Origin: a virus | Direction: 5' to 3' (one strand) | DNA: 22,854 nt | Virus record (IMG/VR): IMGVR_UViG_3300035034_001235 | Span: 1-22,854 of that record | Shown here: in pieces, positions 1,328-22,671 of the stretch | Position numbering within the stretch: the stretch's first letter is position 1 | How the letters are laid out: the number at the start of each line of letters is the position of its first letter | Notes under the pieces: generated by a model | Told to the model about the DNA's origin: nothing | The model's input: only the letters and a program-made list of their open reading frames with translations | Databases searched by the model: none | Translations under genes and position numbers: made by a program

Positions 1328-1335
1328 TATTTATT
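1328..1335 (-). promoter_or_regulatory. T4-late-type promoter element AATAAATA (tail fibre)
   Basis: AATAAATA on the minus strand overlaps the TAA stop of the upstream internal virion gene. It is followed by an A-rich leader with AAAGGA and the fibre ATG 24 bases downstream. No -35 element is seen. It is one of 15 matching elements in the window. Confidence 0.6.
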
Positions 1336-3808
1336 CAAATGGCGTTGGGAATCTTGAAGGCGTTGCCTCGTTTGGTTTCCAAAAGAACTCTTGCCCACGT
1401 TCGTCATAAACGCGGTCCATATATCGTTCCATTCTGTTTGCTGAATCGGGATTCACTGTCTGTTCAAGCTGACCAATCAAGCCGTTCCTGAACGCAGTCT
1501 TCAAATACCAAATCGAACTCATTGGGATATATCGTGAACCCTTGTTCACCAGATCACCAAAGAAGGATTGCATCACTTCTTCTGCGTCTTTTTCGTTTTG
1601 GATTTTGCCAATGGCTGAGTTTAGAACACGCGAGACATCACCACCAATGCCACCGAACACTGGACCAGCAACTATTTGAAGCAGGTTGCGTTCTGCCATG
1701 TTGTCACCTGTCAGTGTTGAATATGCGAAATCACCAAAGACACTAAGACCACCACCAGCAATCGTTGCCTTCATCCAGAAGTCAGGTGTTGTCATATCAA
1801 GTGGATCACGCCCTGCTGCGATTTCTCGCATTTGAACTGAAAATGCACCCATGGCTGTCAGACCGATTGTGAGTTGGCTTAGATATTTCACACGCTCTAT
1901 TGGCGTTATTCGCGATCCACTGACTGCACGTGCCCAATGGGTGTGAAGAACCTGAATCGGAAATCTCTTATACATCGTCGCGGATTTTGAAAGTTCACCC
2001 ATAAGGGTTCCACCTTTTTGACCAAAACGCAGAATGCGTTCTGTTCTCAGACTTGATGAAATGACACCAAATCCACTTTCCGCCACAATCCCTTGGTGAA
2101 GCCTTGTGGCAATCTCACCAGCACCTGCCACACCAGCCTGTTCAAGTTTGGCAATCTCCATCATGCCAAGAACTTTCTGACCATCTAAATCAAGAAGGTC
2201 AGCCTTTTGAATAACCTTCCACGCTTCTTCATCAATGCCATAGGTGTCTAAGAAACGTGCCATCTGTCTATCAAGCTGATCAAAGGACTTCCCAACGCTC
2301 TCAGCAAGCCACATGGACATAGTTAGACTGAAAGCCTCTCTGCCTGCGTCTGTGTGTCCTGAAAGACCACTGAAACGCATTGTGGCGTCTGCCAGCCTGT
2401 CAGTGATGCCACCCATAGGAAGGTCACTGGTGAAGCGTTGTGATGCGATAATGTTTGAAGCGTAGTTCTCAGAAATCAAACCAGCCCGAATGGCAATGTT
2501 CTTTGAATCTGGATCACGTCTGATTAGGTTCACATAGTTTTTCACTAACTTTGTCATTGGCAGTTTGTTATAGCTTGCCGCCATTTGTGAAGTGACAAAA
2601 TCACCGGGAACGGCAAGCAAATATGCACTTCCCAACTGTGCCGATTGCAGAACTTTTCGAATGCCAGAAAATGTGTTGGCCACTTTCGGATTCACACTGG
2701 CAATGGCGTTGCCATTCACTTCATCGAAAGAACGTGTGATTTTATCTATTGCAACACGGCTGTCTTTGCCTTGCTTCGCATAATCGGCATCAACCACCTG
2801 TTTCATAAACTGCACCATTGCATCATCATTTGGTCCGAACATTTCCAAACGTGCGATGTCATGTGTCATGTTTTCAACGTGTGACAACATCGAAGCAAAG
2901 ATGTCTTCACGTCCAAACTGATTGTTATATGAAACCCAATCATCACCGTTGAAGTGAAGAATGCGTGAGTTATAACGCTGATTTGCCAGCTTCTTTTTGC
3001 CAGCAGATGTGCCACTTGTTGGCTTGATTTTGTTTCTTCCATTTGTGGTGATTGTGTCGAATGAATCGGCAAGCAGGTCACGAAGTTCTTTGTCTGTTAG
3101 TTGTCGCGAAGAAACCTGATCCAGCATCTTTGAACGATCAAGAAGTGGCATTGTTGTTTCAATCCAACGTGCCTTTCCAACTTTCATCATGCGGTCTGCA
3201 TCATGGACGTGTGGCAGAACCCAATCTTTTCGTTTGGCCAGCACACCACCTGCTGCACGGAAGCGATCAATCAGCCAATCATTCACGTTGTTGAAGGCGT
3301 CTGCCAGATCGTTTGCAGCCTGATTGTTGGAAGCACCACGAAGGGCTTCATGAAGGTCTTTGTCTGTTGCCAAGCCGTGTTTGTTGCGGCTGAACGAACG
3401 AAGCAAACGCGGTCTGAACTTATCCAAGACACCGCCCATGACTGCCATGGCTTGTTGTTGGATTGCCGCACGTCTGTTGAAGAAGTTGTTCTGTTTTCCA
3501 ATGTCCCTGATGTCACGATCAAACAAAGACAATGCACCATCTAAGGTGCCACGAGAATGTGAAGTCATGACATCTTCTATTTCGGTCTGCTTCTTCAAGC
3601 GAAGCATGGTCTGAAAGCGAATGATGCTTTTGTTCTTTGTGAAATCATCCAAGGCTTGTTGTGCAGCAACTGCACTGACGTGTGCTGGTGATCCAGCAGC
3701 CGTGTTCTGCTGTTCATATTGTTTGATCAGATCGAGCAGTTCACGGCCTTCATCACGTGAAAGCGTCCCTGCTGAAACTTTTGCTTTTATACATTCATTT
3801 GCACTCAT
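1331..3808 (-). CDS. Internal virion protein, gp16-like C-terminal portion (825 aa)
   Basis: A large protein in the T7 gp16 position, between the gp15-like gene and the fibre. With the 587-residue protein upstream it totals about 1,412 residues, close to T7 gp16 (1,318), so the ejection protein seems to be split over two genes. The C-terminal third has hydrophobic or glycine-rich stretches near residues 642-660, 676-696 and 709-721, as expected for a protein that enters the host envelope during DNA ejection. No lytic transglycosylase motif was recognised. The ATG directly follows the TAA of the upstream gene (TAAATG), with GGA in the upstream gene's last codons as a possible ribosome site, which implies coupled translation. 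The role is inferred from position, size and composition. Confidence 0.72.
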   Translation of the reverse strand: MSANECIKAKVSAGTLSRDEGRELLDLIKQYEQQNTAAGSPAHVSAVAAQQALDDFTKNKSIIRFQTMLRLKKQTEIEDVMTSHSRGTLDGALSLFDRDIRDIGKQNNFFNRRAAIQQQAMAVMGGVLDKFRPRLLRSFSRNKHGLATDKDLHEALRGASNNQAANDLADAFNNVNDWLIDRFRAAGGVLAKRKDWVLPHVHDADRMMKVGKARWIETTMPLLDRSKMLDQVSSRQLTDKELRDLLADSFDTITTNGRNKIKPTSGTSAGKKKLANQRYNSRILHFNGDDWVSYNNQFGREDIFASMLSHVENMTHDIARLEMFGPNDDAMVQFMKQVVDADYAKQGKDSRVAIDKITRSFDEVNGNAIASVNPKVANTFSGIRKVLQSAQLGSAYLLAVPGDFVTSQMAASYNKLPMTKLVKNYVNLIRRDPDSKNIAIRAGLISENYASNIIASQRFTSDLPMGGITDRLADATMRFSGLSGHTDAGREAFSLTMSMWLAESVGKSFDQLDRQMARFLDTYGIDEEAWKVIQKADLLDLDGQKVLGMMEIAKLEQAGVAGAGEIATRLHQGIVAESGFGVISSSLRTERILRFGQKGGTLMGELSKSATMYKRFPIQVLHTHWARAVSGSRITPIERVKYLSQLTIGLTAMGAFSVQMREIAAGRDPLDMTTPDFWMKATIAGGGLSVFGDFAYSTLTGDNMAERNLLQIVAGPVFGGIGGDVSRVLNSAIGKIQNEKDAEEVMQSFFGDLVNKGSRYIPMSSIWYLKTAFRNGLIGQLEQTVNPDSANRMERYMDRVYDERGQEFFWKPNEATPSRFPTPFE

Positions 3809-5572
3809 TTATTTTCCTAAAACACAGTTTGTGAACTGACTGATCAGTTCGTTGTCTCTTTCCAAATCATTTGAAATATCATTCGCTGATCTGGTGATTG
3901 GGTTTCCTTCTCCATCAATATCAATCACGAACTGACGGTCTGGATTTCCTTCAATCATCGTCTTGAAATCTTGTTCAATGGCTGCTGAATATTCGCCATC
4001 GTTGATCATCTTCGAAACTTCTTCTGATTGTTCTGCTGCTGCACGTGCTGTTGTGTTGCTGGCTGCACCACTTGCCTGTGATGGAATCTCTGCATTCCCT
4101 GCTTCGAATGGGCTTCGTGGTGGAACCACTGTCACTGGTGGTTCTGCATTCGCGGCTGCTGCTTGTGCTGGTCTTTTTGTTTTGAAGAATCGTCCATCAG
4201 CAACAAAGCCCTTTTCCAAGTCTGCTTCATCCAGTTCAAACTTCTTCGCGATCTGCTTTGATGTTGTGCTGCCACCATCGAAGAAAATAGAACCGTCTTT
4301 GGTTCGAACTGCTGAAATGACTAAGTTGCCTTGTGGTTCATCAAAACCTTGGGCCTTCACGTTTGGCTGCACGGCTTCATCAAGAACCTGATCAACAGTC
4401 TTGGTTGAACCAAGTGCTTCAAGTTCCTTTCGAACCACATCATCAACATTATCCACACCCGTTCTGGCCACGGCTGTTTTCACGCCATCAATAAGAAGGT
4501 CACGCACATCAGGTGGCAGAAGGTTTGGAAGGGCATTGTCTGTGACACTGCCACTTTGAAGAATATCGTCAGCACGTGACATCAAGACAGGATCAATCTT
4601 CCCGCTTTCAATGCTGTTTGTTGCTCTTTGCAGAAGGTCAACGTGGGTGTCTATGTCTGCTTGGCTTGCAAGCTTGTTGGGTGCTGATCGTTCGAACTCA
4701 CGATATTCACGCAACACACGAAGGTTTTCTTTCTGGGATGCTGGCAGTTCATCAATCCGTGCTTCTGCCTCTTCAATGATTTCATCAAGTCTGCTTGTTC
4801 CTTTTCGTGCCTTGGCCAACTTGCCAACACCACGTGCAATCAACTTGCCACCACCTGCCAAAACACCACCGGCTGCTGTTGCAGTCATGACGGTTTGAAA
4901 GGCACGTGCTTTTGCATCTTCTTCTGACATTCCCTGCTTGATTAGGAATGGAACAACCTTTGTCTGAATGAAGGCTTCTGACACACCTGCCACCGCTGCT
5001 TCTGTGGCCATGAATGCCAACAAGCCCTGTGCTGCGAAAGGTGCAGTGGCAACCATAGCTGCAATGTTGATTGGATCAGTCATGGCACCTTGGCCAGCAC
5101 CAACAAACTCACCAAATCCACCAGCCGTGCTGGAACGCGATGAAATATCATCTGTGTCTTCACGTGACAGACGTGCTTTGGTGATCACTGCTTGTTCAAT
5201 CTCAGCAAGTGTTTTCAGTTGAAGGTCAGGATTCTCTTCATTCAGTTTCTGAACGGTTTCGTCATATTCTCTTTTCTGTCGCTGAATGCGTTCAGCTTCC
5301 CTTATGCGGGTTCCACCACGTCCATCAACACCTGCCGGAAGTGGTGAGTTTGGAAGGTGTGGATTGCGTTGAATATCCAAACCAACTGTTCTGGCTTGCT
5401 CGAACTGCTGATCAAGTTCTTCGTCACGAAAGTTCTCATATGAAAAATATTGATCGTTGCGTTTGAACGACTCCAAACTGGCTTCATAGTTTTCTGTGAA
5501 GTTAGTTTCTAAGCTGCCAAATGAGTTTTCTTGAATGGTGGAAAGTGATTCATCGTCAAAATAAAATGGCAT
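3809..5572 (-). CDS. Internal virion protein, gp16-like N-terminal portion (587 aa)
   Basis: The product begins MPFYFDDESLSTIQ and has a charged, probably coiled-coil region at ~90-135 (IREAERIQRQKREYDE...). An alanine-rich hydrophobic stretch follows at ~165-215 (DPINIAAMVATAPFA...) and a glycine-rich segment at ~230-250. The second half is low in hydrophobic segments and ends SQFTNCVLGK. The ATG at 5572 overlaps the stop of the gp15-like gene (TGATG), and its own stop abuts the next ATG, so three internal-protein genes are translated together. Unlike T7 gp16, no N-terminal transglycosylase domain is apparent, so a cell-wall-degrading activity must lie elsewhere or be absent. Function is inferred from context. 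Confidence 0.68.
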   Translation of the reverse strand: MPFYFDDESLSTIQENSFGSLETNFTENYEASLESFKRNDQYFSYENFRDEELDQQFEQARTVGLDIQRNPHLPNSPLPAGVDGRGGTRIREAERIQRQKREYDETVQKLNEENPDLQLKTLAEIEQAVITKARLSREDTDDISSRSSTAGGFGEFVGAGQGAMTDPINIAAMVATAPFAAQGLLAFMATEAAVAGVSEAFIQTKVVPFLIKQGMSEEDAKARAFQTVMTATAAGGVLAGGGKLIARGVGKLAKARKGTSRLDEIIEEAEARIDELPASQKENLRVLREYREFERSAPNKLASQADIDTHVDLLQRATNSIESGKIDPVLMSRADDILQSGSVTDNALPNLLPPDVRDLLIDGVKTAVARTGVDNVDDVVRKELEALGSTKTVDQVLDEAVQPNVKAQGFDEPQGNLVISAVRTKDGSIFFDGGSTTSKQIAKKFELDEADLEKGFVADGRFFKTKRPAQAAAANAEPPVTVVPPRSPFEAGNAEIPSQASGAASNTTARAAAEQSEEVSKMINDGEYSAAIEQDFKTMIEGNPDRQFVIDIDGEGNPITRSANDISNDLERDNELISQFTNCVLGK

Positions 5573-7887
5573 CAGTTGGCTAATGCCCCTCTTCCATGCC
5601 TGTTGTTGTTCCTTGGTTTGGGTGCATTCAATCGAGTGGTCAGATTTTCGTGAATGTTGTCATAGGTCATTCTGAACGGCTTGTTTGTGTCGCGATCACG
5701 AAGGAACACGAAACCACCATTGCCGTTTGGCAAGCCAATCACATAAACGCCATTTGATATTCTGAATGGAACGCCATCATCTTTGATGCGATCAAGGCTG
5801 ACTTCTTCTGGTTCATCGAAGGTGCCAACAACAGGCATGGAAGAGACGCCACCGCTTTGAAGCAGGTCGTCTTCTTGGAGAAGACTCCATCTGTCTCGTG
5901 CTTCTGTGATTCCCATTCCAAACTTGAATGGAACAACTCTGTGGCCATTGATTTTTGGAACAGTTGAAAGGCTTTTCAAACCAAACAGGCTGGCAACGGC
6001 TCTTTCAGCCGTGCCATCATCAACACCTTTGCCAATCTTGTTTTGACTGACCATCATAGAAGCATAGATTTTGGTTGCTGCTTCTTTCAGTGTTGCACTG
6101 ACTCTGCCGCCCCTATCCATGGACATTCCATTGGCCAGCTTTGGAAAGAACTCGTTGATCTTCTCCAACACCGTCACTTCCAGTTTTTTCTTAGATTCCA
6201 AAATCTCTGGATTGTTTTTCAGGATTTCAGAACCTTCAACGATCTGACGTGCAGTGTTGCTGGCATCAGATGAACCCACTGACATCAAGCCAGCCACTGT
6301 TGCAATCTCTGGGTTCTTTGGTGCAATGGATTTCAGAACGGCGTTCAAGTCTTCACCTTCACCTGCAAAACGAACAAGGGTGCTGACCAGTTGAAGTTTT
6401 TCAACGTCAGTGCCGTCTTCATAATCGCGTGTGATGTTGTCCACTTCCGTTGCTGTCAGAAGTGGCATTTCTTGTGGTTCAGTGAAGATTGATGTTTCAC
6501 CATTGTCAGCCGTCACAGTGTATTTGCTGCCATAGTGTTCAGCACTGACACGCACGGCTTCACGTCTGCCTTCCCATGTTTCAGGATTTGAAAGCTGGAA
6601 TGGTGGAAGATTCACAACACCCATTTTTGCTGAGTGTCCAAGCGGGTCATTCTTTGCACCTGTGATGGTGTCGCCATGAACCTTTTCCATGGCTTTGAGC
6701 AATCGAATAGTGCCTGTGTTGCCACCTTCGTCATTCATTCCTGAACGCAATGACTCGATTTCATTTTGCTGCTGTTGGGTTCCCATTTGTCTGAACTGCT
6801 TCATCACATCGAAGTGGGCTTTGGCTTGTTCCCAATCGCCTTGAACAGCCGGATTAGATGCAACTATTTCTTCAAGCTGAACTGCGTTCGTTGGTGTGAA
6901 GCCGTCATAGAAAACATCAATGCCCTGCTTCACTGCCTTTTCTGTGTTTTTTGAATATGCGTTTAGTGCGGATGCATCACGTGACAAATCAGCACGAAGA
7001 CGCGAAAGAACACCACGGCGTTTTTCTGGTGATAGGATTTCACCACGCAGGGTGCTTGGGTCTTGTGCATCCTTTCGCAGTTTCGTCAGATCATAAGTTT
7101 CAAGGGCTTCAATATAGGCTTGTTTCTGTTGAACGGTTTGAAGCTGATTATAACCACGAACCCATTCACCCTCGCGTTGCACCTGTTTGAAATCAGTCAG
7201 CATCTTTTTGACCTGACCAATCTTTGCACCTTTGTTCTTCTGTAACTCTTCAATGTGTTGAAGAAGTTCTTCTGTCAGTTCACCCGCTGTTGCACCGCTG
7301 GGTGTCATATAGTCTTCACCCTTCACTTCACCTGAACTGATTCCAACAAAGATTTCGTTCGTCAAATAACCAACACGTTCAACACGGTCTGCAATCTCTG
7401 ATTCTTGTTGGCGTCTGATCACGTTGGTGTTGATGCTGCTTGTGTGGCGTCCAACAAGACCTGAGAAGCGTTCGTTCAATGCAGCACGAACACCTGCATC
7501 ACTTGTCACAGATGACACCAGTTTCTTTTTTAGATTGCTGGCTTGCTTTTGGAAGGCAACTGGATCGTCTTCATAAGTTGTGGCCAGTTCTTGAAGCTGG
7601 GTGTCTATCTCAGTTCTGCGTGATGGAAGGAACACACCTGCTGCACCTTGTGTGGCTGCTCTGCCTCGTGTGGTCAGTGGATTGCCTTTGATTAGGTCAG
7701 CACCATCAGATGCTTCTTGTGCTGCTTGTCCTTCTTCGAAGCCTTGTGCTTCCATTGCTTCATCAAGCTTCTTGCCCAACTTATTCGTCACATCATCCCA
7801 TAGCTGGGATTCTGAGTTTGGAATGAAAACACTTGGTGCACTTAGGTTGACTGTTGCGGGGCCGATTCGTGGCTGTTGTCTTGCCAT
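5572..7887 (-). CDS. Internal virion protein, gp15-like (771 aa)
   Basis: Length (771) and position between the gp14-like and gp16-like genes match T7 gp15 (747 aa), a DNA-ejection protein that forms part of the periplasmic channel. The sequence is mostly polar and helical. It has many charged coiled-coil-like stretches (around residues 95-260) and no clear membrane segment, as usual for this family. The ATG follows GGGGGAAC within the end of the upstream gene (CAATAAACCATG), a good ribosome site only a few bases past the upstream TAA. A C-terminal GLPNGNGGFVFLRDRDTNKPFRM segment resembles a small beta domain. Identification rests mainly on synteny and size. Confidence 0.75.
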   Translation of the reverse strand: MARQQPRIGPATVNLSAPSVFIPNSESQLWDDVTNKLGKKLDEAMEAQGFEEGQAAQEASDGADLIKGNPLTTRGRAATQGAAGVFLPSRRTEIDTQLQELATTYEDDPVAFQKQASNLKKKLVSSVTSDAGVRAALNERFSGLVGRHTSSINTNVIRRQQESEIADRVERVGYLTNEIFVGISSGEVKGEDYMTPSGATAGELTEELLQHIEELQKNKGAKIGQVKKMLTDFKQVQREGEWVRGYNQLQTVQQKQAYIEALETYDLTKLRKDAQDPSTLRGEILSPEKRRGVLSRLRADLSRDASALNAYSKNTEKAVKQGIDVFYDGFTPTNAVQLEEIVASNPAVQGDWEQAKAHFDVMKQFRQMGTQQQQNEIESLRSGMNDEGGNTGTIRLLKAMEKVHGDTITGAKNDPLGHSAKMGVVNLPPFQLSNPETWEGRREAVRVSAEHYGSKYTVTADNGETSIFTEPQEMPLLTATEVDNITRDYEDGTDVEKLQLVSTLVRFAGEGEDLNAVLKSIAPKNPEIATVAGLMSVGSSDASNTARQIVEGSEILKNNPEILESKKKLEVTVLEKINEFFPKLANGMSMDRGGRVSATLKEAATKIYASMMVSQNKIGKGVDDGTAERAVASLFGLKSLSTVPKINGHRVVPFKFGMGITEARDRWSLLQEDDLLQSGGVSSMPVVGTFDEPEEVSLDRIKDDGVPFRISNGVYVIGLPNGNGGFVFLRDRDTNKPFRMTYDNIHENLTTRLNAPKPRNNNRHGRGALAN

Positions 7888-7890
7888 GGT

Positions 7891-8373
7891 TTATTGTTCC
7901 CCCGGATGATTGCCAGAACCAAAGGAACTGTCAGTTGTTGTGGTGCTTCCACTGAACGCACCTGAACCTGCTGCCTTGATGGCAAAGCCAAGAACACTTT
8001 GTGCTGCCTTTGCGTTTCCGGCTGAAATGGCATTCTTCGCACTGGCATTTTTTGCATCTGCTGACAGTTCAGCGTTCAAGGTATTCACAAAGTTCTGTGC
8101 TTCTCCATCGGCTGCTGTCTGTGCTGCCAGTTGCGGCACACTGCCAAACGAACTGGTGACACCTGCTGCACCTGCTGCTGAAAGCTGTCTACCAATGATG
8201 CGATCAGTTTGCTTGTCATTCTCGTGCTTTTTCAGAACAGCATTAGTTCTTCCAATGGCTGCTTCTGATTTGAGTTGATTTGATTGTGCCTTGGCTGCGT
8301 TCCTTGATGATTGAACGCTCATTGCCGTTGAAACGGCCATCAAAGCCAGTGTTGCTGCTGCTACGCCACACAT
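7891..8373 (-). CDS. Internal virion protein, gp14-like (160 aa)
   Basis: A longer frame opens at 8415, but the late-type promoter and the ribosome site AAAAAGGAG lie inside it. I therefore start at the ATG at 8373, giving MCGVAAATLALMAVSTAMSV. T7 gp14 also begins with MC followed by a hydrophobic alanine-rich stretch, then a Q/A-rich helical region; here residues ~20-120 are similar (SSRNAAKAQSNQ...). This protein helps build the ejection channel in the outer membrane. The end is rich in G, S and T (AAGSGAFSGSTTTTDSSFGSG), a common gp14 tail. It is the first gene of the unit that carries the gp15-like and gp16-like genes. Confidence 0.78.
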   Translation of the reverse strand: MCGVAAATLALMAVSTAMSVQSSRNAAKAQSNQLKSEAAIGRTNAVLKKHENDKQTDRIIGRQLSAAGAAGVTSSFGSVPQLAAQTAADGEAQNFVNTLNAELSADAKNASAKNAISAGNAKAAQSVLGFAIKAAGSGAFSGSTTTTDSSFGSGNHPGEQ

Positions 8374-8396
8374 ATATTGGGGTCTCCTTTTTCTTT

Positions 8397-8404
8397 TATT
8401 TAGT
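8397..8404 (-). promoter_or_regulatory. T4-late-type promoter element ACTAAATA (internal virion protein unit)
   Basis: ACTAAATA overlaps the TAA stop of the gp13-like gene and is followed by AAAGAAAAAGGAG and the gp14-like ATG 24 bases downstream. Confidence 0.6.
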
Positions 8405-11353: not shown

Positions 11354-11357
11354 ATGA

Positions 11358-12876: not shown

Positions 12877-12915
12877 GTTCACCTGCAACGGTTCGTAAAA
12901 GTCACCTTTCACTTT

Positions 12916-12923
12916 TATTTATC
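12916..12923 (-). promoter_or_regulatory. T4-late-type promoter element GATAAATA (capsid unit)
   Basis: GATAAATA followed by AAAGTGAAAGG, placed 11 bases after the T-run of the scaffold terminator. It heads the long capsid leader. Confidence 0.62.
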
Positions 12924-12933
12924 TTTCACGCAC

Positions 12934-12959
12934 AAAAAATGGCGGTCGAAACCGCCATT
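12934..12959 (-). terminator. Rho-independent terminator after the scaffold gene
   Basis: On the minus strand AATGGCGGT and ACCGCCATT form a perfect 9-bp stem closed by a stable TTCG loop, followed by TTTTG. It separates the portal-scaffold unit from the capsid unit. Confidence 0.88.
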
Positions 12960-12987
12960 CTCTGAAATGATTTTTTGATGAAATGGA

Positions 12988-14346: not shown

Positions 14347-14349
14347 TCT

Positions 14350-14378
14350 TTTCCTTTCAGTTCAGTTCAGTTCAGTTC
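14350..14378 (-). repeat. Tandem CTGAA repeat at the portal stop codon
   Basis: On the minus strand CTGAA occurs four times in a row (GAACTGAACTGAACTGAACTGAA). The portal stop TGA lies in the first copies and the ribosome site of the next gene follows directly. Unit loss or gain would change spacing, or the last portal residues. Confidence 0.7.
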
Positions 14379-15956
14379 GTTTGGTGGTGGTGGCAGAAGG
14401 TCTTGTTGTCCTTCTCCACCTTGTGGCATTCCACCCTGTGCCATTTGTCGAATAAGGTTCTGGACATCTTCGCCCGATAGAACACCCTCTTCTGATAGAT
14501 ATTTATGTTTCATTCCCAAGGCAGTCAGTGCATCACGCACAAATGCTTTCAGGTCTATTTCGCTTTGCACAAGCTGAGCCATCAATGGGTTCGCACTGAT
14601 GGTGTTGATTGCTTCCAAGCCACTTGTTGCCGTGCTTAGTTCTTCACCACGTGACACCAAGCTTGTGACTGAAATCTCAATCCGCTTGTCATCAATCTCC
14701 AATGCTGGAAGTGCTTGAATGCTTTGAAGGGCACCCAATGACGCACGTGAAATCGGCTTCACCAGTTCTGCTTCAATCTGAAAACCAAGAGTTCTGACTT
14801 TCCGAAAAAACTCAGCCTGACGTGCCTGAATCTCAGTGCGTGTCATTTTGTCACCCTTTGCCTGTGGTGGTGGCAAAGCATCAGCATAAAGACCACGCAA
14901 AATGCGAAGACGATAATCATCCACCCATTGCTTCACTAACTGGTCATTGCCAGCCGTGGTGATCTGTTCTGGCTTCACTTGTGAAATGATTGTGCTGTTC
15001 GCAACAATCTCTTGATCACGAAGTGTTTCTGATTCACTCCAATATGTTGGATTGGCTTCACGATAAACGATGTCCAAACCGTTTTCGATTAGTTCAAAAA
15101 GAACTCGAACGTCTGGCAACATATCGCGAAGTGCACAGGTTCCCCAATCTTCACCGGGAATGGTGTCTGCACGAAAAGCCACAATGCGTTGATAAGGAAG
15201 TTCCTTCTCATAGAGTGACTTCCAGCCCTTCAACAAATGCTTTCCAAAATACCATTTGCCATTTGGCATCAGGATATTGGATTCAATGATTTCAATGCTC
15301 TTTTCGTCTTGTTCGCGTTCGTGCCCAATGCCCTGATCTTCACAATATTCATCAAAGTTTATGTTGGGATATTCATGACGCAAAACCCGCAATGGCTTCT
15401 TTGTCACACGGAACAATGAATCAATCTCACGTTCACCTTGAAGGATGAACAGTTCACGCAAATGAATAGGGAAATAGTGAAGCTTCTCTTTGACAATCTC
15501 CACACCAATGGCACCAGTGCCACATGTGTTGGCATATTTCAGTGCCGTGTTGATGGCACCATTCAAGTTCGTCTTGCTCAATAGTTTGAAGAAACGATGG
15601 TTGAACTCTTCAACGGTTTCAGCCAAGTCACCACCACCTTGAAAGGCTGGTTGTGCCAATGCCAAATCCAAAACATCATCGTCATATTGATCATTCGGAT
15701 TCTTCACAGGGCCGATATGAACAAACGGCACATCAACAGGAAGAAGATAAGTGATGATGTTTGTCACCAGTGTATCTATGGCTTCTCGTGGTGTTGTGTC
15801 GATTAGGTTTGATTTGTCGATTGCAGCATCAAGTTCGCGTGTGATCGAAAGGCTTGGAAACGCAGAAAGAAGACATTCATCCAGTTCATATTGGACACGC
15901 TCTTTCGATTTTTTCGCCTTCTTGAATCTGCTTTCTAAGTTGTCAGATGAAATCAT
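14367..15956 (-). CDS. Portal (head-tail connector) protein, gp8-like (529 aa)
   Basis: Length matches T7 gp8 (536). The N-terminus has an ...AFPSLSITRELDAAIDKSNLIDTTPREAIDTLVTNIITYLLP... region like the podovirus connector start (E...L..P......). Mid-protein segments include TCGTGAIGVE (~145) and KWYFGKHLLKGWKSLYEKELPYQRIVAFRADTIPGEDWGTCALRDMLPDVRVL (~235-290), the wing-to-stem part with the usual 'P....R......GE.YG.G......D...L' pattern. A long helix and YADALPPPQAKGDKMTRTEIQARQAEFFR (~345-375) match the conserved 'MTATEV..R'. The C-terminus is G/Q/P-rich. The ATG abuts the stop of the gp7.3-like gene (TAAATG). It would form the 12-subunit DNA-packaging ring. Confidence 0.92.
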   Translation of the reverse strand: MISSDNLESRFKKAKKSKERVQYELDECLLSAFPSLSITRELDAAIDKSNLIDTTPREAIDTLVTNIITYLLPVDVPFVHIGPVKNPNDQYDDDVLDLALAQPAFQGGGDLAETVEEFNHRFFKLLSKTNLNGAINTALKYANTCGTGAIGVEIVKEKLHYFPIHLRELFILQGEREIDSLFRVTKKPLRVLRHEYPNINFDEYCEDQGIGHEREQDEKSIEIIESNILMPNGKWYFGKHLLKGWKSLYEKELPYQRIVAFRADTIPGEDWGTCALRDMLPDVRVLFELIENGLDIVYREANPTYWSESETLRDQEIVANSTIISQVKPEQITTAGNDQLVKQWVDDYRLRILRGLYADALPPPQAKGDKMTRTEIQARQAEFFRKVRTLGFQIEAELVKPISRASLGALQSIQALPALEIDDKRIEISVTSLVSRGEELSTATSGLEAINTISANPLMAQLVQSEIDLKAFVRDALTALGMKHKYLSEEGVLSGEDVQNLIRQMAQGGMPQGGEGQQDLLPPPPNELN

Positions 15957-16166
15957 TTAGGGTGCAAGGTTCGCTTCTGGTGCAAGGAACACTTCTGTCA
16001 CTCCACGGCCACCTGTCTTGGTTGAGCGTGTTGAGTTGCGTCCTTTTCTCTTTTTCAGTTTTTCTTCTTGTTCTTTCTTAGCTGCTGCCTCTGCTGCCTT
16101 CTTCTTTGCAAGTTCTGCATCAGGATCAGGGATTGGTGCTGCTTTCGGTGATGACATGCCACACAT
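15957..16166 (-). CDS. gp7.3-like small virion/tail assembly protein (69 aa)
   Basis: A short protein just before the portal gene, as gene 7.3 is before gene 8 in T7. It has an MCGMSSPKAAPIPDPDAELAKKKAAE start, a lysine-rich helix (KKEQEEKLKKRKG) and an RNSTRSTKTGGRGV motif like the 'GR.STLLTG..G' element of podovirus gp7.3 relatives, which are minor tail proteins tied to host adsorption. The ribosome site AAGGAG precedes the ATG. The start sequence ATATGTGTGGC is identical at the gp14-like gene. Its stop directly abuts the portal ATG. Confidence 0.62.
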   Translation of the reverse strand: MCGMSSPKAAPIPDPDAELAKKKAAEAAAKKEQEEKLKKRKGRNSTRSTKTGGRGVTEVFLAPEANLAP

Positions 16167-16193: not shown

Positions 16194-16201
16194 TATTTAG
16201 G
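16194..16201 (-). promoter_or_regulatory. T4-late-type promoter element CCTAAATA (portal-scaffold unit)
   Basis: TTGCCTAAATA is shared exactly with the two plus-strand elements at 22010 and 22664. Here it is followed by AAAGAAG, an AAGGAG ribosome site and the gp7.3-like ATG. Confidence 0.65.
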
Positions 16202-16204: not shown

Positions 16205-16426
16205 TCACGTCAGTTCACGAAGCGTGGCAATCATTTCTTCTTGTTCTTCTGGTGTGCTGTTTCCAACTGCCTTGCACCAAATCATCAAGACCTTTTCGAA
16301 GGATTCCTGTGATGCGTTGAATGAACCAAGAAGGCTGCTGGCACGTTCAAAGCCCTCTTGCCACCATTCGAGATTGTGGGCTGCAACGATGGCTTGAAGT
16401 CTTTCTTTGTCATATTGAGTTTTCAT
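16205..16426 (-). CDS. Unknown 73-residue protein
   Basis: A short, acidic, helical protein (MKTQYDKERLQAIVAAHNLEWWQEGFERASSLLG...EEQEEMIATLRELT). The frame is open to 16462, but the promoter element and the AAAAAAAGGAAAC ribosome site lie in that extension, so the ATG at 16426 is used. It has its own promoter just downstream of a strong terminator, so it is probably made late and independently of the membrane protein upstream. No family recognised. Confidence 0.65.
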   Translation of the reverse strand: MKTQYDKERLQAIVAAHNLEWWQEGFERASSLLGSFNASQESFEKVLMIWCKAVGNSTPEEQEEMIATLRELT

Positions 16427-16461: not shown

Positions 16462-16469
16462 TATTTATG
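16462..16469 (-). promoter_or_regulatory. T4-late-type promoter element CATAAATA
   Basis: CATAAATA, followed by TGTGTGCACAC and the ribosome site of the 73-residue gene 36 bases from its ATG. It lies 15 bases after the terminator hairpin. Confidence 0.55.
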
Positions 16470-16477
16470 CAGACAAA

Positions 16478-16522
16478 AGAAAACCAGTGTCTGAAATAGG
16501 CAAAACAGACACTGGCTTTTTT
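16478..16522. terminator. Bidirectional rho-independent terminator
   Basis: CCAGTGTCTG (16484-16493) pairs perfectly with CAGACACTGG (16506-16515) across a 12-base loop. TTTTTT follows on the plus strand, and TTTTCTTTT follows on the minus strand. It ends minus-strand transcripts from the membrane-protein gene. Confidence 0.9.
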
Positions 16523-16562
16523 GAGGAAATGCGAAAGGGAGTCACAACCTTTTCACACACAC

Positions 16563-16748
16563 TTATTTATCTTTTGCTTTGCCAACATTCACTGCCAGCA
16601 TATCAATGAAGCGATAAACTTTTGCCCACGTTGTTCCGGCCTTTGGCGTTGGTGTCACTGATGCAATGACAGACGCGATGCTGACGGCTGCAAACACATA
16701 TGGTGAATAGTCACCTGCCACACTTTGAATGATCGTTATGATTTCCAT
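16563..16748 (-). CDS. Small one-helix membrane protein, possible holin (61 aa)
   Basis: The start at 16748 (MEIITIIQSVAGDYSPYVFAAVSIASVIASV) is set by AAAGGAG upstream; a GTG five codons earlier lies on that ribosome site. One hydrophobic helix (~14-31) is followed by TPTPKAGTTWAKVYRFIDMLAVNVGKAK. The 'TPTP......K.YR.I..LA.N.GKAK' pattern occurs in small phage membrane proteins that are often labelled holins or left unnamed. Its TAA stop forms part of a late-type promoter element. Being the only membrane protein close to the virion genes, it is a lysis candidate; this is inference. Confidence 0.65.
   Translation of the reverse strand: MEIITIIQSVAGDYSPYVFAAVSIASVIASVTPTPKAGTTWAKVYRFIDMLAVNVGKAKDK
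16564..16571 (-). promoter_or_regulatory. T4-late-type promoter element GATAAATA overlapping a stop codon
   Basis: GATAAATAAGTGTG is identical over 14 bases to the element at 17637. It overlaps the last codons and stop of the membrane-protein gene, and a terminator follows some 50 bases later, so any transcript would be short. Confidence 0.4.
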
Positions 16749-16766: not shown

Positions 16767-16774
16767 TATTTATT
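16767..16774 (-). promoter_or_regulatory. T4-late-type promoter element AATAAATA (membrane protein)
   Basis: AATAAATA followed by ACGGTGAAAGGAG and the ATG 19 bases downstream. Confidence 0.6.
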
Positions 16775-16790
16775 GTCGGGAAGGTTCACA

Positions 16791-16878
16791 TCGAAGTTGG
16801 AAAAAATGTGCGGGACATCGAAGTTGGAAAAAATGTGCGAGATTTTTGAAGTTGGAAAAAATGTGCGAGATTTTTGAA
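16791..16878. repeat. Three 27-28-bp direct repeats plus a partial copy
   Basis: GAAGTTGGAAAAAATGTGCG occurs three times, starting at 16793, 16820 and 16848 (period 27, then 28), with a partial GAAGG at 16876. The array lies just upstream of the membrane-protein promoter. It contains an A6 tract per repeat, in phase at roughly 2.6 helical turns. Protein-binding sites or an origin element are possible; I do not think it is coding. Confidence 0.7.
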
Positions 16879-17168: not shown

Positions 17169-17196
17169 TGATGGACAATTGATTGGCATTATAAAT

Positions 17197-17430
17197 GATG
17201 GCTGTTCGATGGATGATGATGGCTGTTCGATGGATGATGATGGCTGTTCGATGGATGATGATGGCTGTTCGATGGATGATGATGGCTGTTCAATGGATGA
17301 TGATGGCTGTTCAATGGATGATGATGGCTGTTCGATGGTTCAATGATGGATGATGATGGCTGTTCGATGGTTCAATGATTCAATGATGATGGTTCAATGA
17401 TGACTGCTCGATGGTTCAATGATGCTGATG
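17197..17430. repeat. 21-bp tandem repeat array
   Basis: Six contiguous units of GATGGCTGTTCGATGGATGAT run from 17197 to 17322; units 5 and 6 carry G to A in TTCG. Two longer variants (17323 and 17355) are expanded by TTCAATGATGG-type inserts, and decay continues to about 17430. The first four units are identical, so the left side was copied most recently. The unit length is 7 codons, but no start codon with a ribosome site opens a frame through it. Iteron-like. Confidence 0.88.
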
Positions 17431-17636: not shown

Positions 17637-17644
17637 TATTTATC
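17637..17644 (-). promoter_or_regulatory. T4-late-type promoter element GATAAATA facing a non-coding region
   Basis: TGATAAATAAGTGTG overlaps the stop of the frame at 17643-17864. The next clear gene in its direction starts nearly 900 bases on, at 16748, after another promoter. Confidence 0.5.
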
Positions 17645-18436: not shown

Positions 18437-18734
18437 CTGGGTTATTGTTTCGGTGATAGTTGTCGCGTCTTGTTTTGAGATAGTGGGCTTTGTTCTTTTC
18501 TTTCCAACGTTGCCAATATGCATTCCAGCGTTCTTTGTTGGCTTGTCGCCATTCTCTGAAATATTCATTGCTCTTTCTTGGCTGGTTCAGTGAAGACAAT
18601 CTGTTGCATTCCACACATCTATAATCTGATGTGAAGCGTTCAGCGATGTGTCCGTGCTTGCATGGTTTGCCAGTGAAATATCTGGTCAGGTTGTTCTTGA
18701 TGGCAAAGCTTCTGGTGACTATTTCGTTGCTCAT
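18426..18734 (-). CDS. Small zinc-binding protein, CxHxH...CxxC type (102 aa), copy 1
   Basis: Residues ~15-45 read RYFTGKPCKHGHIAERFTSD, then YRCVECNR: one Cys, two His and a CxxC that can bind zinc. This module is common in phage proteins and at the N-terminus of some HNH endonucleases. No HNH catalytic motif follows here; the C-terminus is a basic, W/R/K-rich helix (REWRQANKERWNAYWQRWKE) suited to nucleic-acid binding. The ATG overlaps the stop of the membrane peptide gene (ATGA). A paralogue lies at 19154-19453, with near-identical DNA over the zinc motif. Function unproven; DNA or RNA binding is likely. Confidence 0.72.
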   Translation of the reverse strand: MSNEIVTRSFAIKNNLTRYFTGKPCKHGHIAERFTSDYRCVECNRLSSLNQPRKSNEYFREWRQANKERWNAYWQRWKEKNKAHYLKTRRDNYHRNNNPDGS

Positions 18735-18844
18735 AGGACCATCACAAAGACTTGCATCAAGAAAGCAATCGCCAGACCTGCTAGGGCAATCACTAGTCCA
18801 AATGATTTGTGGTAGGTGTTCATTAGTTTCATTAGTTTCATCAT
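18731..18844 (-). CDS. 37-residue single-helix membrane peptide
   Basis: MMKLMKLMNTYHKSFGLVIA, then LAGLAIAFLMQVFVMVL, then stop. A basic, Met-rich start is followed by a hydrophobic helix running to the C-terminus (residues ~15-37). It is too short for most gene callers. It is supported by AGAGAGGAAAC upstream, by its own late-type promoter at 18870, and by a 4-base overlap (ATGA) with the next gene. It is likely an inner-membrane peptide; holin-like or superinfection functions are possible but not shown. Confidence 0.68.
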   Translation of the reverse strand: MMKLMKLMNTYHKSFGLVIALAGLAIAFLMQVFVMVL

Positions 18845-18869: not shown

Positions 18870-18877
18870 TATTTATC
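18870..18877 (-). promoter_or_regulatory. T4-late-type promoter element GATAAATA (small-gene operon)
   Basis: GGATAAATAAAAG overlaps the TAA of the gene ending at 18873. It is followed by AGAGAGGAAAC and the ATG of the membrane peptide 26 bases downstream. Confidence 0.6.
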
Positions 18878-19172
18878 CAAAATGGAAGTTTGTGGTTCTT
18901 TTTGCGTGGATTCCTTCACTATTGATCGTGAAGGTTCTGATTGTGATGGTTAGGTTTTTGAGCAATCGCACTTTGAATGTGTGTGTCACTGATTTGATGC
19001 GATCAACTCGAACCTTGAAGCCACGTCTTTGAAAATGCGTGTGCACCATCATCAAGAAATCATCGGGCAAAACATCGAACACACAGAACGTGAAAAAATC
19101 ATCTTCTGTGAGGATGTCTTTTAGATGCAGCCGTGGAATGAACGGGGTCTGCTTCAACGTGTTTGAAACCAA
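18873..19172 (-). CDS. Unknown protein, up to 99 aa, with a weak start
   Basis: The frame opens with a TTG at 19172 (19 bases inside the end of the upstream gene) after a stop just before it, so ATG cannot be used until an in-frame ATGATG mid-gene. The sequence (FIPRLHLKDILTEDDFFTFCVF, ..., FKVRLLKNLTITIRTFTI) is basic and beta-rich towards the end. Translational coupling to the upstream gene would explain the poor start. Its TAA stop is used by the next promoter element, which supports it as a real gene. No family recognised. Confidence 0.5.
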   Translation of the reverse strand: MVSNTLKQTPFIPRLHLKDILTEDDFFTFCVFDVLPDDFLMMVHTHFQRRGFKVRVDRIKSVTHTFKVRLLKNLTITIRTFTINSEGIHAKRTTNFHFG

Positions 19173-19453
19173 GTCACCAGCTTATCAATGAACGTTGTGC
19201 GTTGCTGCTTCTGTTTCCATCGTTTGAAGTAGTCTGGGTTTTTTCTGTGCCATTCCTTGAAATAGTCTGGATTGGCTGCACGCCATGCAATGGCATTCTC
19301 TGGATGTCTTTTCTTATATCGACGTGCGTTCTCTTTGGCACATTCAACACACGTGGAGTTCGCAACATAGCTTTCTGCCTTGTGTCCGTGCTTGCATGGC
19401 TTGCCAGTTGAATATGTCTTGTGCCCTTTTGCGATTGCTTCTTTGCGTGTCAT
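19154..19453 (-). CDS. Small zinc-binding protein, CxHxH...CxxC type (99 aa), copy 2
   Basis: It starts MTRKEAIAKGHKTYSTGKPC and has the same module as the 102-residue protein at 18426-18734: GKPCKHGHKAESYVANSTCV followed by ECAK. The C-terminus is very basic and aromatic (NPDYFKEWHRKNPDYFKRWK, with a repeated NPDYFK unit), which suggests nucleic-acid binding. AAAAGGA precedes the ATG, and a promoter element lies 25 bases upstream. The two copies probably arose by duplication. Confidence 0.72.
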   Translation of the reverse strand: MTRKEAIAKGHKTYSTGKPCKHGHKAESYVANSTCVECAKENARRYKKRHPENAIAWRAANPDYFKEWHRKNPDYFKRWKQKQQRTTFIDKLVTWFQTR

Positions 19454-19477: not shown

Positions 19478-19485
19478 TATTTAGT
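19478..19485 (-). promoter_or_regulatory. T4-late-type promoter element ACTAAATA
   Basis: ACTAAATA followed by CATGCAGAAAAGGA and the ATG of the second zinc-binding gene. It lies just after the stop of the helicase-primase gene. Confidence 0.58.
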
Positions 19486-19506: not shown

Positions 19507-21705
19507 TTATATATATGAAGGCAGACTTTGCGTGATGCTGGCATAGTTGTCTTTTCGTGAGCCGTCATAGTCCATCTGTGTCATCAACTGATAGAGTTCT
19601 GAGCCGTCATAGCCTTTCAATCGAAGTTTGCGACACGCCTTGAAGAATGCGTTGTGGCGTTGCCCTGTGTTGGCTGGCACTGATTGATATTCTGCAAAGA
19701 TGTCATCAACTGATGCGTTGATTACATTGATCTGCTTCATTGGTTGATGTGCTGTTGTTGTTGGCACTGGAATATTCAGTTCATCAATCACGTCTATTGG
19801 GTTCAAGATGTCTGTGTGTCTGTCTTCAAAGAAGCTGATGCCATCTTTGACACATGGATGTGCTGGCAAATACATCAGATTTTCAGGTTGAAGCTTCGAT
19901 TCATCAATGCCGTGAAACTTTTCGTGCGTCTTGTCATCAACGAAGCCATTCAATCGGCACTTATTTCGCACCCATTCCATCATCAAGTGATAGGTTTCGC
20001 CATTCATCTGTGTTTGTGTTGGGATGAAGGCACGGAATCTAGTTTTGTCTGTTGAACTTGCCGTGTTGAAAGTGATGACACGAAATGGATGCATCAACTT
20101 TGCAAACTCAGATTCAGTCATCACGCCACCTTCCACATCAACCCAAAGATGCCATGAGAAATCAACATTGCTGCGTTTTCGATTGGTTGTGTCTTTGAAT
20201 GTTGAAGGACAAACAAGAATATTATCGCTCTTTCGTGCTGGCTTGGTTGTGTTGCTTAGATATTGCAGTTGTTCGATGAAGTCATTCAGTTCATAGGTGA
20301 TTTGCTTTTGTTGTTTGTCATATATGCCTTCACAGAAAGTGACAGGGAACCGGATGGCATGATTTCCTATAGAGTCTTTATAGAGAATCGTGCCAAGTCG
20401 ATTTGAAGATGGAATCAATGACTCAATCAGTTCCTTTTTCTTTCTTTTTCTATATGACAACTGCTCTTCTGATGTGGCTATGCATTTGATTTGTGATCCA
20501 GCGAATAGTTCTTGAATGCGAAGTGCTGACGCATGATCAGGAACAAAAATATCAACTGGCTCAGTTGCATTCGGATCACGCAACGAACAACGCATTGCAT
20601 CTTGATAGAACATTTCCATCTGTCTTGCTTTGGTTAGTTCATCACCAGATATGCCAAGTCCTTGCATCAATCTTCTTTCGAAGCCATTGGCAAGATAAGT
20701 GCCAAAGATGGCCACCTGATGCACATCACTATATGCGTTCAATCCATGTGCAATGGCTGGCAGACGCACACCATTTGTTTTCGGGTTTCTGATGTTGTTG
20801 TCCACATAAAGAAAGCCATCGTTGAAGTTGGCATTCGCCCAATCAACAAGAAGCTGGTGGTTTGTTTTTGAAGGTGTCTCTTTGGACATCTGTTCAAGGC
20901 GTGTCTTCGATGCACGATCAAACATATAGTGGATAGTCAGACGATGGCCATTCTCGTGTTTTTGAAAACGCAAACGAGAAGTCACAGGTTCATAATCAAC
21001 GAATGATGTGGTGTTCCATAGTTTCGGCATCAATGAATCATCGAAGTTCGCACCCATAACAATGGCACGTTTGAATCCGCACAAGAACGATGGTTGAAGC
21101 ACACTCAGAAAGTTGAAGATGCCGCTTTGGTTTTCTTCCAACATATATGTGATGCTGAAATCATCCAGCAATGCACGTGCCAAAGGTTCAAACACCTTAT
21201 CAACATCATCATGTTCACTGCCTTCAATAATATCGCGAAGAAAGGTTTCATCAGTTGAATGAATAGCAATGCCTTCTGGTGTGTGTGACTGCTTGAAATA
21301 GTCATTCAGTTCATCCCTGTGATTCTTCAAGTTCAAGCTGAATGTTTTTGTCATGGCTGGAATCTCGTCATGAATCACAGTCCAAGTGTGCTTGTGAATG
21401 AAGAACGGAATCAGACGCAACAACGCATGAGTGACAAAAACTATTTCGCCACTTCGTTTGTCTGCTGTTCTCAGATGGTCATTGAATGATTTGGCAACTA
21501 TGCCGGGGTTCTGTTCGCCATGGAACTTGAACGTTGAAACACGTTCTTTCACGAACGGTTCCCATTCTTCTATGCATTGGATTGTTGGTTGAACAACAAG
21601 AACGCGTTCGCCTTGATTGGCAAGCCTCACGGCTTCGTTCATTGCTGAATATGTTTTCGCAGAACCGCATCCTGCACTGACTTTATAGATTTTATTGTGT
21701 TGCAT
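19507..21705 (-). CDS. Helicase-primase fusion: SF2 helicase plus archaeo-eukaryotic-type primase (732 aa)
   Basis: N-terminal SF2 helicase: Walker A at 11-18 (AGCGSAKT, with Ala where GKT is usual), VVQPT at 37-41, DE box at 113-114 (VIHDEIP), and a motif VI-like QDAMRCSLR at 368-376. C-terminal primase of the AEP superfamily: acidic pair D523/E525 (WVDVEGG), NTASSTDKTRFRAFIPT at 547-563, then a His at 573 and LQPENLMYLPAHP at 605-617. This matches the 'NT..HT...PRFR..IP' and 'S.L.YLP' signatures of plasmid and phage primases. A PriCT-like helical end lies at ~679-732 (GQRHNAFFKACRKLRLKGYD). One protein could thus unwind DNA and prime synthesis. It is the leading gene of the minus-strand block, after a leader with two hairpins. 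Confidence 0.78.
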   Translation of the reverse strand: MQHNKIYKVSAGCGSAKTYSAMNEAVRLANQGERVLVVQPTIQCIEEWEPFVKERVSTFKFHGEQNPGIVAKSFNDHLRTADKRSGEIVFVTHALLRLIPFFIHKHTWTVIHDEIPAMTKTFSLNLKNHRDELNDYFKQSHTPEGIAIHSTDETFLRDIIEGSEHDDVDKVFEPLARALLDDFSITYMLEENQSGIFNFLSVLQPSFLCGFKRAIVMGANFDDSLMPKLWNTTSFVDYEPVTSRLRFQKHENGHRLTIHYMFDRASKTRLEQMSKETPSKTNHQLLVDWANANFNDGFLYVDNNIRNPKTNGVRLPAIAHGLNAYSDVHQVAIFGTYLANGFERRLMQGLGISGDELTKARQMEMFYQDAMRCSLRDPNATEPVDIFVPDHASALRIQELFAGSQIKCIATSEEQLSYRKRKKKELIESLIPSSNRLGTILYKDSIGNHAIRFPVTFCEGIYDKQQKQITYELNDFIEQLQYLSNTTKPARKSDNILVCPSTFKDTTNRKRSNVDFSWHLWVDVEGGVMTESEFAKLMHPFRVITFNTASSTDKTRFRAFIPTQTQMNGETYHLMMEWVRNKCRLNGFVDDKTHEKFHGIDESKLQPENLMYLPAHPCVKDGISFFEDRHTDILNPIDVIDELNIPVPTTTAHQPMKQINVINASVDDIFAEYQSVPANTGQRHNAFFKACRKLRLKGYDGSELYQLMTQMDYDGSRKDNYASITQSLPSYI

Positions 21706-21910: not shown

Positions 21911-21924
21911 TATTTATCATTATA
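21911..21924 (-). promoter_or_regulatory. Promoter candidate upstream of the helicase-primase: GATAAATA with adjacent TATAAT
   Basis: TATAATGATAAATA combines a host-type -10 hexamer with the late-type element. The 5' leader to the gene would be about 200 bases. No TTGACA-like -35 lies at proper spacing. A dual early/late promoter is possible. Confidence 0.42.
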
Positions 21925-22009: not shown

Positions 22010-22017
22010 CCTAAATA
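22010..22017 (+). promoter_or_regulatory. T4-late-type promoter element CCTAAATA (plus-strand gene)
   Basis: TTGCCTAAATA, then ACT, then an ATG that opens a 12-codon frame (22021-22059). The 167-residue gene follows with its own ribosome site. Confidence 0.6.
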
Positions 22018-22072: not shown

Positions 22073-22576
22073 ATGGCAAACATCACATTCACAGACGATC
22101 AATATGAAGAAGTCATAGACTTCTGCAAAAACGTGATCATTCGCAAACAACAAGAACCCTCAGCATCAGCCCAACGTTCAGTTGAAACATATTCAAACAT
22201 CATTCGGAAGCTTTCGGAAAATGGCACACTCACAGACAGGGAACTTGCTGTTGTTCTGAACGGAAGCAACTGGTTCGCAGATTGGAACGATGAACTAAGT
22301 CAGGAAGTTTTTGACCTGCTGCCACTTAGTTCCGTGAACCTATTGAAAGAAGCTGGTCCAAACAAAAGACCAAAGCCTAAAACGAAGAGAAAGCCAATCG
22401 CACAAAAGCGAAAGCAAATGACCATTGAAGACTTGGTGATTGAAAACGAGTTTGAAGCGATTCAAGACGTGTTCAATATTCCCGACACACCACCAGCACA
22501 ATCAACATTGAGCAAAGAAGATGTGGAAGATGCAGTGTTCAACGGCATCAAAAGGTTCTTTTCGAATCTCAAATGA
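22073..22576 (+). CDS. Unknown 167-residue protein
   Basis: Starts MANITFTDDQYEEVIDFCKN after AAAGGAACC. Residues 1-100 look like a helical globular domain (NIIRKLSENGTLTDRELAVV, LNGSNWFADWNDELSQEVFD). A lysine/proline-rich linker follows at ~95-120 (KRPKPKTKRKPIAQKRKQ), then an acidic helical tail ending GIKRFFSNLK. Such a layout, with a basic linker and acidic or hydrophobic C-terminal peptide, is seen in nucleic-acid-binding or sigma/clamp-contacting phage proteins, but I recognise no family. It is the first gene of the plus-strand unit. Confidence 0.7.
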   Translation: MANITFTDDQYEEVIDFCKNVIIRKQQEPSASAQRSVETYSNIIRKLSENGTLTDRELAVVLNGSNWFADWNDELSQEVFDLLPLSSVNLLKEAGPNKRPKPKTKRKPIAQKRKQMTIEDLVIENEFEAIQDVFNIPDTPPAQSTLSKEDVEDAVFNGIKRFFSNLK

Positions 22577-22582
22577 TAAATA
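22575..22582 (+). promoter_or_regulatory. T4-late-type element GATAAATA overlapping a stop codon
   Basis: TGATAAATA overlaps the stop of the 167-residue gene and is followed within about 50 bases by a hairpin and terminator, so a transcript would be short. It mirrors the arrangement at 16564. Confidence 0.38.
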
Positions 22583-22586: not shown

Positions 22587-22615
22587 TGAAGGGTTTATTG
22601 AACTCATTCCCTTCA
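22587..22615 (+). other. Inverted repeat between element and terminator
   Basis: TGAAGGG (22587-22593) pairs with CCCTTCA (22609-22615) across a 15-base loop. It has no T-run of its own. Confidence 0.4.
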
Positions 22616-22628
22616 ACTATCTCATGGA

Positions 22629-22662
22629 AGGAAAGTCAGTCTCACGATTGGCTTTCTTTTTT
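22629..22662 (+). terminator. Rho-independent terminator after the 167-residue gene
   Basis: GAAAGTCA (22631-22638) pairs with TGGCTTTC (22649-22656) with one G-U pair, followed by six Ts. Confidence 0.78.
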
Positions 22663-22663
22663 G

Positions 22664-22671
22664 CCTAAATA
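22664..22671 (+). promoter_or_regulatory. T4-late-type promoter element CCTAAATA, 5 bases from an ATG
   Basis: TTGCCTAAATA, then TTCTC, then the ATG of the next gene; no ribosome site is present. It begins two bases after the terminator T-run. Confidence 0.62.

Follow-up and report, generated by a model that had tools for sequence, protein, structure and literature searches.

Putative T4-late-class promoter elements at the virion genes of a podovirus fragment and in a provirus of Azonexus hydrophilus

To our knowledge, T4-late transcription (gp55, gp33, and the clamp) is known only from large T4-like phages, and in the literature that we searched it is not described on another particle type. 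A viral genome fragment in which the short element TAAATA recurs at the gene boundaries of a podovirus virion module raises the question of whether promoters of this kind can serve such a particle and, if so, what reads them. In T4 late promoters, a −10-like element is present and the −35 region is not conserved (PMC7892883), and the late promoter element of cyanophage S-PM2 is NATAAATA (PMC2984593). We describe here the elements, a second virus that carries them, and the candidates for their reader.

The window and its genes

The window, that is, the whole stretch of DNA analyzed, is the full IMG/VR record IMGVR_UViG_3300035034_001235 of 22,854 bases. We judged it to be a fragment of a viral genome because genes are cut at both of its ends and no terminase is present. 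Its main genes are as follows.

3-1304, minus: tail fiber gene
1331-15956, minus: virion genes (phrog_684 structural protein, internal virion proteins, tail tubular B and A, capsid, portal)
1331-3808, minus: gene for the phrog_684 virion (structural) protein
7891-8379, minus: internal virion protein gene
10760-11353, minus: tail tubular A gene
11846-12748, minus: capsid gene
14086-14346, minus: small gene after the portal gene
14367-15956, minus: portal gene
15957-16166, minus: small MCG gene
16205-16426, 16563-16748, and 18731-18844, minus: small genes
19154-19453, minus: endonuclease-VII-like gene, one of two such genes in the window
19507-21705, minus: gene for a 732-aa protein
22073-22576 and 22677 onward, plus: two plus-strand genes

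The N-terminal half of the 732-aa protein resembles proteins of T4-like and jumbo phages, with a relationship to T4-like phage proteins that extends over 420 residues, and its C terminus is weakly primase-like, with a weak PriCT-1 match. Searches by the portal, tail, capsid, or 732-aa protein found no close relative of the window in viral_contigs, a collection that may leave out near-identical records.

TAAATA elements in the window

TAAATA was found 16 times in the window, compared with a mean of 2.1 and a maximum of 6 in dinucleotide shuffles, and VHTAAATA was likewise found 16 times (shuffle mean, 1.4; maximum, 5). Under a second-order Markov model, it was the most overrepresented hexamer of all (16 versus 1.9 expected). 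Every copy was in the sense orientation relative to the local genes, and 14 of the 16 touched noncoding DNA, which makes up 9% of the window (Fisher's test, P = 3e-17). None of the single-base variants of TAAATA had a comparable sense-intergenic excess in the window. Chance or base composition as the source of the elements was ruled out by the shuffles, the Markov models, and the positions.

A first-pass annotation, made from the sequence alone, had listed 15 sites at gene boundaries plus one extra TAAATA at 14500, had stated that they follow the direction of the local genes, and had proposed a count by strand against shuffled sequence. All of these sites were present on the strands that it gave, their directions were as described, and the count showed the excess reported above rather than an equal density within genes or on the two strands. 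Its motif, [GAC][ATC]TAAATA, was right for position 1, which is never T, but too broad for position 2, which is A or C (C being common) and never T. The 15 boundary sites thus share the consensus [GAC][AC]TAAATA, or VMTAAATA, with an invariant TAAATA core. The term "gene boundary" suited most sites and was loose for four (17637, 16564, 21911, and 12916). The T4 octamer TATAAATA has zero occurrences in the window. The elements, with the terminators and transcripts predicted next to them, are listed below.

1328-1335, minus: predicted promoter element AATAAATA, 23 nt before the tail fiber gene (3-1304)
8397-8404, minus: predicted promoter element ACTAAATA, 17 nt before the internal virion protein gene (7891-8379)
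11358-11365, minus: predicted promoter element ACTAAATA, 4 nt before the tail tubular A gene (10760-11353), after an intrinsic terminator
11383-11408, minus: intrinsic terminator immediately before the 11358 element, −18.9 kcal/mol
12916-12923, minus: predicted promoter element GATAAATA, 167 nt upstream of the capsid gene (11846-12748), after a terminator
12933-12964, minus: intrinsic terminator immediately before the 12916 element, −19.9 kcal/mol
14500-14507, minus: element CATAAATA within the 3′-terminal part of the portal gene, 153 nt before 14086-14346
16194-16201, minus: predicted promoter element CCTAAATA, 27 nt before the small MCG gene (15957-16166)
16462-16469, minus: predicted promoter element CATAAATA, before 16205-16426 and after a terminator
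16470-16558, minus: possible noncoding transcript of ~90 nt, from the 16564 element to a terminator, with two hairpins (z = −6.8)
16564-16571, minus: predicted promoter element GATAAATA, before the possible noncoding transcript and within the final codons of a small ORF
16767-16774, minus: predicted promoter element AATAAATA, 18 nt before 16563-16748
17637-17644, minus: predicted promoter element GATAAATA, with no clear downstream gene
18870-18877, minus: predicted promoter element GATAAATA, 25 nt before 18731-18844
19478-19485, minus: predicted promoter element ACTAAATA, 24 nt before the endonuclease-VII-like gene (19154-19453)
21911-21918, minus: element GATAAATA upstream of the 732-aa protein gene, separated from the next start by 205 nt that include a hairpin
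22010-22017, plus: predicted promoter element CCTAAATA, 55 nt before 22073-22576
22575-22582, plus: predicted promoter element GATAAATA, before a possible noncoding transcript
22588-22664, plus: possible noncoding transcript of ~75 nt that ends in a terminator (z = −4.4)
22664-22671, plus: predicted promoter element CCTAAATA, with the A of the ATG of the gene from 22677 as the sixth base downstream

The sequence downstream of the elements was also constrained. The sixth base after the element was a purine at 14 of the 15 sites (P = 8e-4), the fourth was G at 10 (P = 3e-5), and the fifth was T at 9. Nothing was conserved at −35, and TTGACA within two mismatches was found at 14 to 18 nt in 0 of the 15 sites, in agreement with the first-pass annotation. 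The missing −35 and the predicted purine initiator 6 nt downstream also support its assignment to a T4-late-like, −10-only class. Judged from the sequence, the elements are likely −10-only promoters, and likely of the T4 late class.

Intrinsic terminators directly precede the elements at 11363, 12921, 16467, and 22666. The elements at 16564 and 22575 head short, terminator-ended units that have strong hairpins but no convincing gene, and these units may therefore be small RNAs. The element at 14500 is possibly an internal promoter for 14086-14346. At 22664-22679 and 11350-11365, the element lies 4 to 5 nt before the ATG, an arrangement that would yield leaderless mRNAs.

A virion module without a T7-type polymerase

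The virion module belongs to the epsilon15/phiV10/HTVC010P kind, whose portal, tail tubular, and internal virion proteins are homologous to those of the window and follow the same order. Its relatives include epsilon15/phiV10, Yersinia YeP5, Methylophilales MEP301, and HTVC010P-like pelagiphages, at 21 to 34% identity. A T7-type RNA polymerase was found in 0 of 48 related records (the window itself being a fragment), and the T7 positive control was detected at E = 1e-109. The first-pass annotation had taken the module for a T7-type one in which an own polymerase is the rule. Since these related records are without such a polymerase, that rule does not apply.

The same result bears on the idea that the elements are short promoters of a T7-type single-subunit RNA polymerase. 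A shared part of 8 to 11 bases had been called too short for such an enzyme, which was too strong a statement, as the yeast mitochondrial polymerase Rpo41 uses a promoter of 9 bases. Size aside, the 48 polymerase-free records leave this idea with hardly any probability.

The elements are not inherent to the module either. TAAATA enrichment comparable to that of the window was not found in about 170 other relatives of the virion module (89 collected by the phrog_684 protein or as named phages, 14 chromosomal, and 79 by tail tubular B), which rules out an inherent feature and argues against any deep conservation. Those tested among epsilon15/phiV10, YeP5, MEP301, and HTVC010P share the module with the window and lack TAAATA promoters.

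A provirus with the same elements

We scanned viral_contigs for a pattern combining TAAATA, a ribosome site, and the beginning of the small MCG gene, and found IMGVR_UViG_2524023152_000001, a provirus in the betaproteobacterium Azonexus hydrophilus DSM 23864. It lies at about 486.0 to 519.2 kb of NZ_KE386925.1 and has a G+C content of 48%, versus about 63% in the surroundings. Its exact ends are uncertain because no direct repeat of 12 or more was found as attachment sites. Its genes encode a T7-gp19-type terminase, portal, capsid, tail tubular A and B, internal virion proteins, tail fibers, several HNH endonucleases, and an integrase, and among the proteins scanned none was recognized as belonging to a replication, RNA polymerase, sigma, or repressor family. 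The provirus may be a decayed prophage. Other matches to the promoter-plus-gene pattern (L104, L121, L167, L181, and L168) were rejected, having few sites or sites inside genes.

The virion proteins of the provirus are mostly only 21 to 27% identical to those of the window over the aligned stretches. TAAATA occurred 24 times in the provirus versus 4.7 expected, 21 of these copies touching noncoding DNA (P = 8e-16), and CATAAATA occurred 12 times versus 0.4 expected; the elements are mostly CATAAATA, and TATAAATA is also used. In both viruses, the element stands before the capsid, tail tubular A, tail fiber, and small MCG genes, and just as the window has its 14500 element, the provirus has CATAAATA just downstream of the portal gene (509019). 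A relative whose tail tubular B is 45% identical to that of the provirus (L230) has four sense, intergenic NATAAATA-type sites, some of them preceding the capsid gene and the tail tubular A gene. With no enrichment in the total count, it is only suggestive as a third, weaker case. Two tail fiber genes of the provirus (L186), at 4950-6401 and 6941-8290, have identical promoter-leaders and similar starts and possibly encode alternative fibers.

The host genome made it possible to weigh a host sigma factor as the reader. Host sigmas do recognize AT-rich −10 elements, and the 21911 element of the window abuts, on its upstream side, an ordinary sigma-70-type extended −10 (TGTTATAAT). However, of the 22 copies of CATAAATA in the 3.3-Mb Azonexus genome, 12 are in the 33-kb provirus and 10 in all the remainder. 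Sigma-70-like pairs are depleted across most of the window (6 versus 23), where the elements also lack a −35, and host-read promoters before every virion gene would leave unsilenced a provirus in which no repressor was recognized. We consider a host sigma very unlikely.

Promoters inside hairpins

In the provirus, 10 of 23 elements lie in or beside perfect hairpins that straddle the predicted start, compared with a mean of 0.34 and at most 2 in 300 shuffles. Most have the 5′ arm ahead of the predicted start, and the 3′ arm follows that start, usually covering the ribosome site or start codon; examples on the provirus contig are at 491966, 497289, 504409, 506997, and 512231. A hairpin covered the ribosome site or start codon at 7 of 13 gene starts with an element and at 2 of 28 without one (P = 0.002). 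RNA begun at such an element would be free of the 5′ arm, and read-through RNA would be poorly translated. In T4, hairpins of this kind keep late genes silent on read-through RNA; I-TevI and segB have the promoter in the hairpin, and the ribosome sites of soc and e are likewise hidden (PMC2988022). The arrangement belongs to the provirus and does not transfer to the window, where it was seen at 0 of 15 elements with no excess.

The hairpins also bear on whether the elements are asymmetric protein-binding or RNA-processing sites, akin to the stoperators of mycobacteriophage L5. Short, one-directional motifs at gene boundaries would fit such sites. Stoperators are longer, at 13 bp, whereas these elements are TATA-like, just 6 to 8 bp, and placed directly after terminators, with a putative initiator purine at a fixed distance. 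Moreover, the provirus hairpins have their 5′ arms ahead of the predicted start, and only RNA that starts at the element would escape them. Binding or processing sites are thus highly improbable.

Search for the reader of the elements

The first-pass annotation had expected a T4-like sigma elsewhere in the same genome. A gp55-like sigma (phrog_234) was not found in the window or in about 40 relatives with a working positive control, nor was there a recognizable match in the Azonexus provirus, which carries the same elements, or in its host genome (T4 control, E = 2e-70). The expectation thus found no support in the provirus; for the window virus, where the search covered the fragment, it may still hold. 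A marginal phrog_234 match in the host, a 53-residue stretch within a larger frame (E = 0.004), is most likely a host protein. Two proteins were rejected as sigma candidates: the product of 22073-22576, with a low-confidence fold and no structural match below E = 0.8, and the 187-aa orphan of the provirus, with an uninformative fold. Because neither the provirus nor its host has a recognizable gp55, the reader of the provirus promoters is either unrecognized by sequence or brought by an infecting phage.

The former case corresponds to a sigma or specificity factor of the phage's own, of a family unrecognizable by sequence, as with gp36 of phiEco32; the elements would then be a private −10-only promoter with a convergent likeness to T4. 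Phage sigmas diverge fast, that of 7-11 being only 15% identical to gp36, the provirus has orphan proteins of 187, 143, and 115 aa, and the window is a fragment. PhiEco32 is itself a podovirus with a single-element promoter (tAATGTAtA), a start 6 to 8 nt downstream, and its own sigma (PMC8948821). Phages phiEco32 and 7-11 (sigmas gp36 and gp47) thus resemble the window virus as podoviruses whose promoters are read by host polymerase with a phage sigma, which here we infer. They differ in consensus (tAATGTAtA or GTAAtg-(16)-aCTA) and in that their sigma family, phrog_1740, was not found in the window or in about 40 relatives, the phiEco32 control being positive. No scanned provirus protein matched a sigma family. 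Furthermore, two virion lineages at 21 to 27% identity share the T4-like motif, one of them with T4-like hairpins, which exceeds what convergence on a TATA-like sequence would give. An own sigma is therefore rather unlikely in our view.

Our best explanation, with a probability of about 0.65, is that the TAAATA elements are T4-late-class promoters read by a gp55-class sigma that is absent from this fragment. They would drive the virion and accessory genes of the podovirus one by one. Host RNA polymerase with a gp55-class sigma, being region-2-like only and so requiring no −35, would bind the element, and transcription would begin about 6 nt downstream on a purine; terminators ahead of several elements would insulate the units. 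This sigma would be supplied from outside the fragment, encoded either by the part of the genome that the record lacks or by a second phage present in the cell. That transcription starts at the elements, and which sigma is responsible, is inferred here from sequence features.

The likeness to the T4 and S-PM2 late promoters (TATAAATA/NATAAATA, read by gp55-RNA polymerase) lies in a −10-only element with no −35, a predicted start about 6 nt downstream, and service of late virion genes, and in the Azonexus relative also in promoters within hairpins that would free the ribosome site on late transcripts only. Unlike T4, the window phage is an epsilon15/HTVC010P-type podovirus with unrelated particle genes, its motif VMTAAATA lacks T at position 1, and no gp55 was found in the fragment, the provirus, or the provirus host. 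Against the T4-late explanation count this missing gp55, the departure from T4 at motif positions 1 and 2, the lack of hairpins at the window elements, and the lack of enrichment in the module relatives.

Possible dependence on a T4-like helper

T4-late promoters on nearly every virion unit of a small podovirus, together with an integrated relative without gp55, would suggest either an unrecognized phage sigma or trans dependence on T4-like helpers. As a tentative extension, the window virus and the Azonexus provirus may be virion-encoding satellites that use the late transcription machinery of a T4-like helper, a possibility that we regard as open to considerable doubt. Such a satellite would have its own podovirus particle and integrate, with its virion genes on T4-late promoters that come on only when a helper brings gp55 (plus clamp and replication). 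Hairpins over the ribosome sites would silence read-through RNA until the helper arrives.

The provirus has virion genes and, as far as families were recognized, no replication genes, whereas the window fragment has a helicase/primase-like gene. Circumstantial support comes from the window, in that the 732-aa protein has relatives in T4-like phages and the gene of its homologue in Aeromonas phage 25 adjoins gene 55. Counting against a satellite are the undefined ends of the provirus, its possible decay, and the window's own helicase/primase-like gene. The HNH genes gave no signal as to the identity of a helper.

In virophages such as Mavirus and Sputnik, which are eukaryotic, the virus has its own capsid, uses the helper's late promoters, and persists as a silent provirus woken by the helper. 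Satellites of the proposed kind would share this logic outside eukaryotes, and helper dependence, if true, would be a bacterial counterpart of virophages. Particle-encoding satellite phages do exist, namely, MulchRoom and MiniFlayer of Streptomyces (PMC10690885). The Azonexus provirus is like them in apparently having its own encapsidation genes and no replication genes, but host and particle differ, and a text search of that paper found no description of helper-promoter use. In the literature searched, we found no particle-encoding satellite that uses its helper's late promoters. We put forward satellite dependence as a testable hypothesis, and since the Azonexus strain is in a culture collection, trans-acting dependence is directly testable.

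Other features of the window

An Rfam search gave no match. Across the whole window, GTA/TAC is almost missing from both strands, with 33 occurrences versus 780 expected from base composition and 217 from dinucleotides. The codons GTA (1 of 294 for Val) and TAC (4 of 112 for Tyr) are correspondingly rare, and TpA is strongly depleted, at 0.29 of expectation. Because the depletion is symmetric between strands, it points to a cause at the DNA level (nuclease, modification, or mutation bias) rather than an RNase. It was not found in any relative tested. Finally, a noncoding stretch of the window, at 17190-17400 and 16790-16865, contains arrays of short direct repeats, with units like CATCATCCATTGAACAGC and CTTCAAAAATCTCGCACATTTTTTCCAA.
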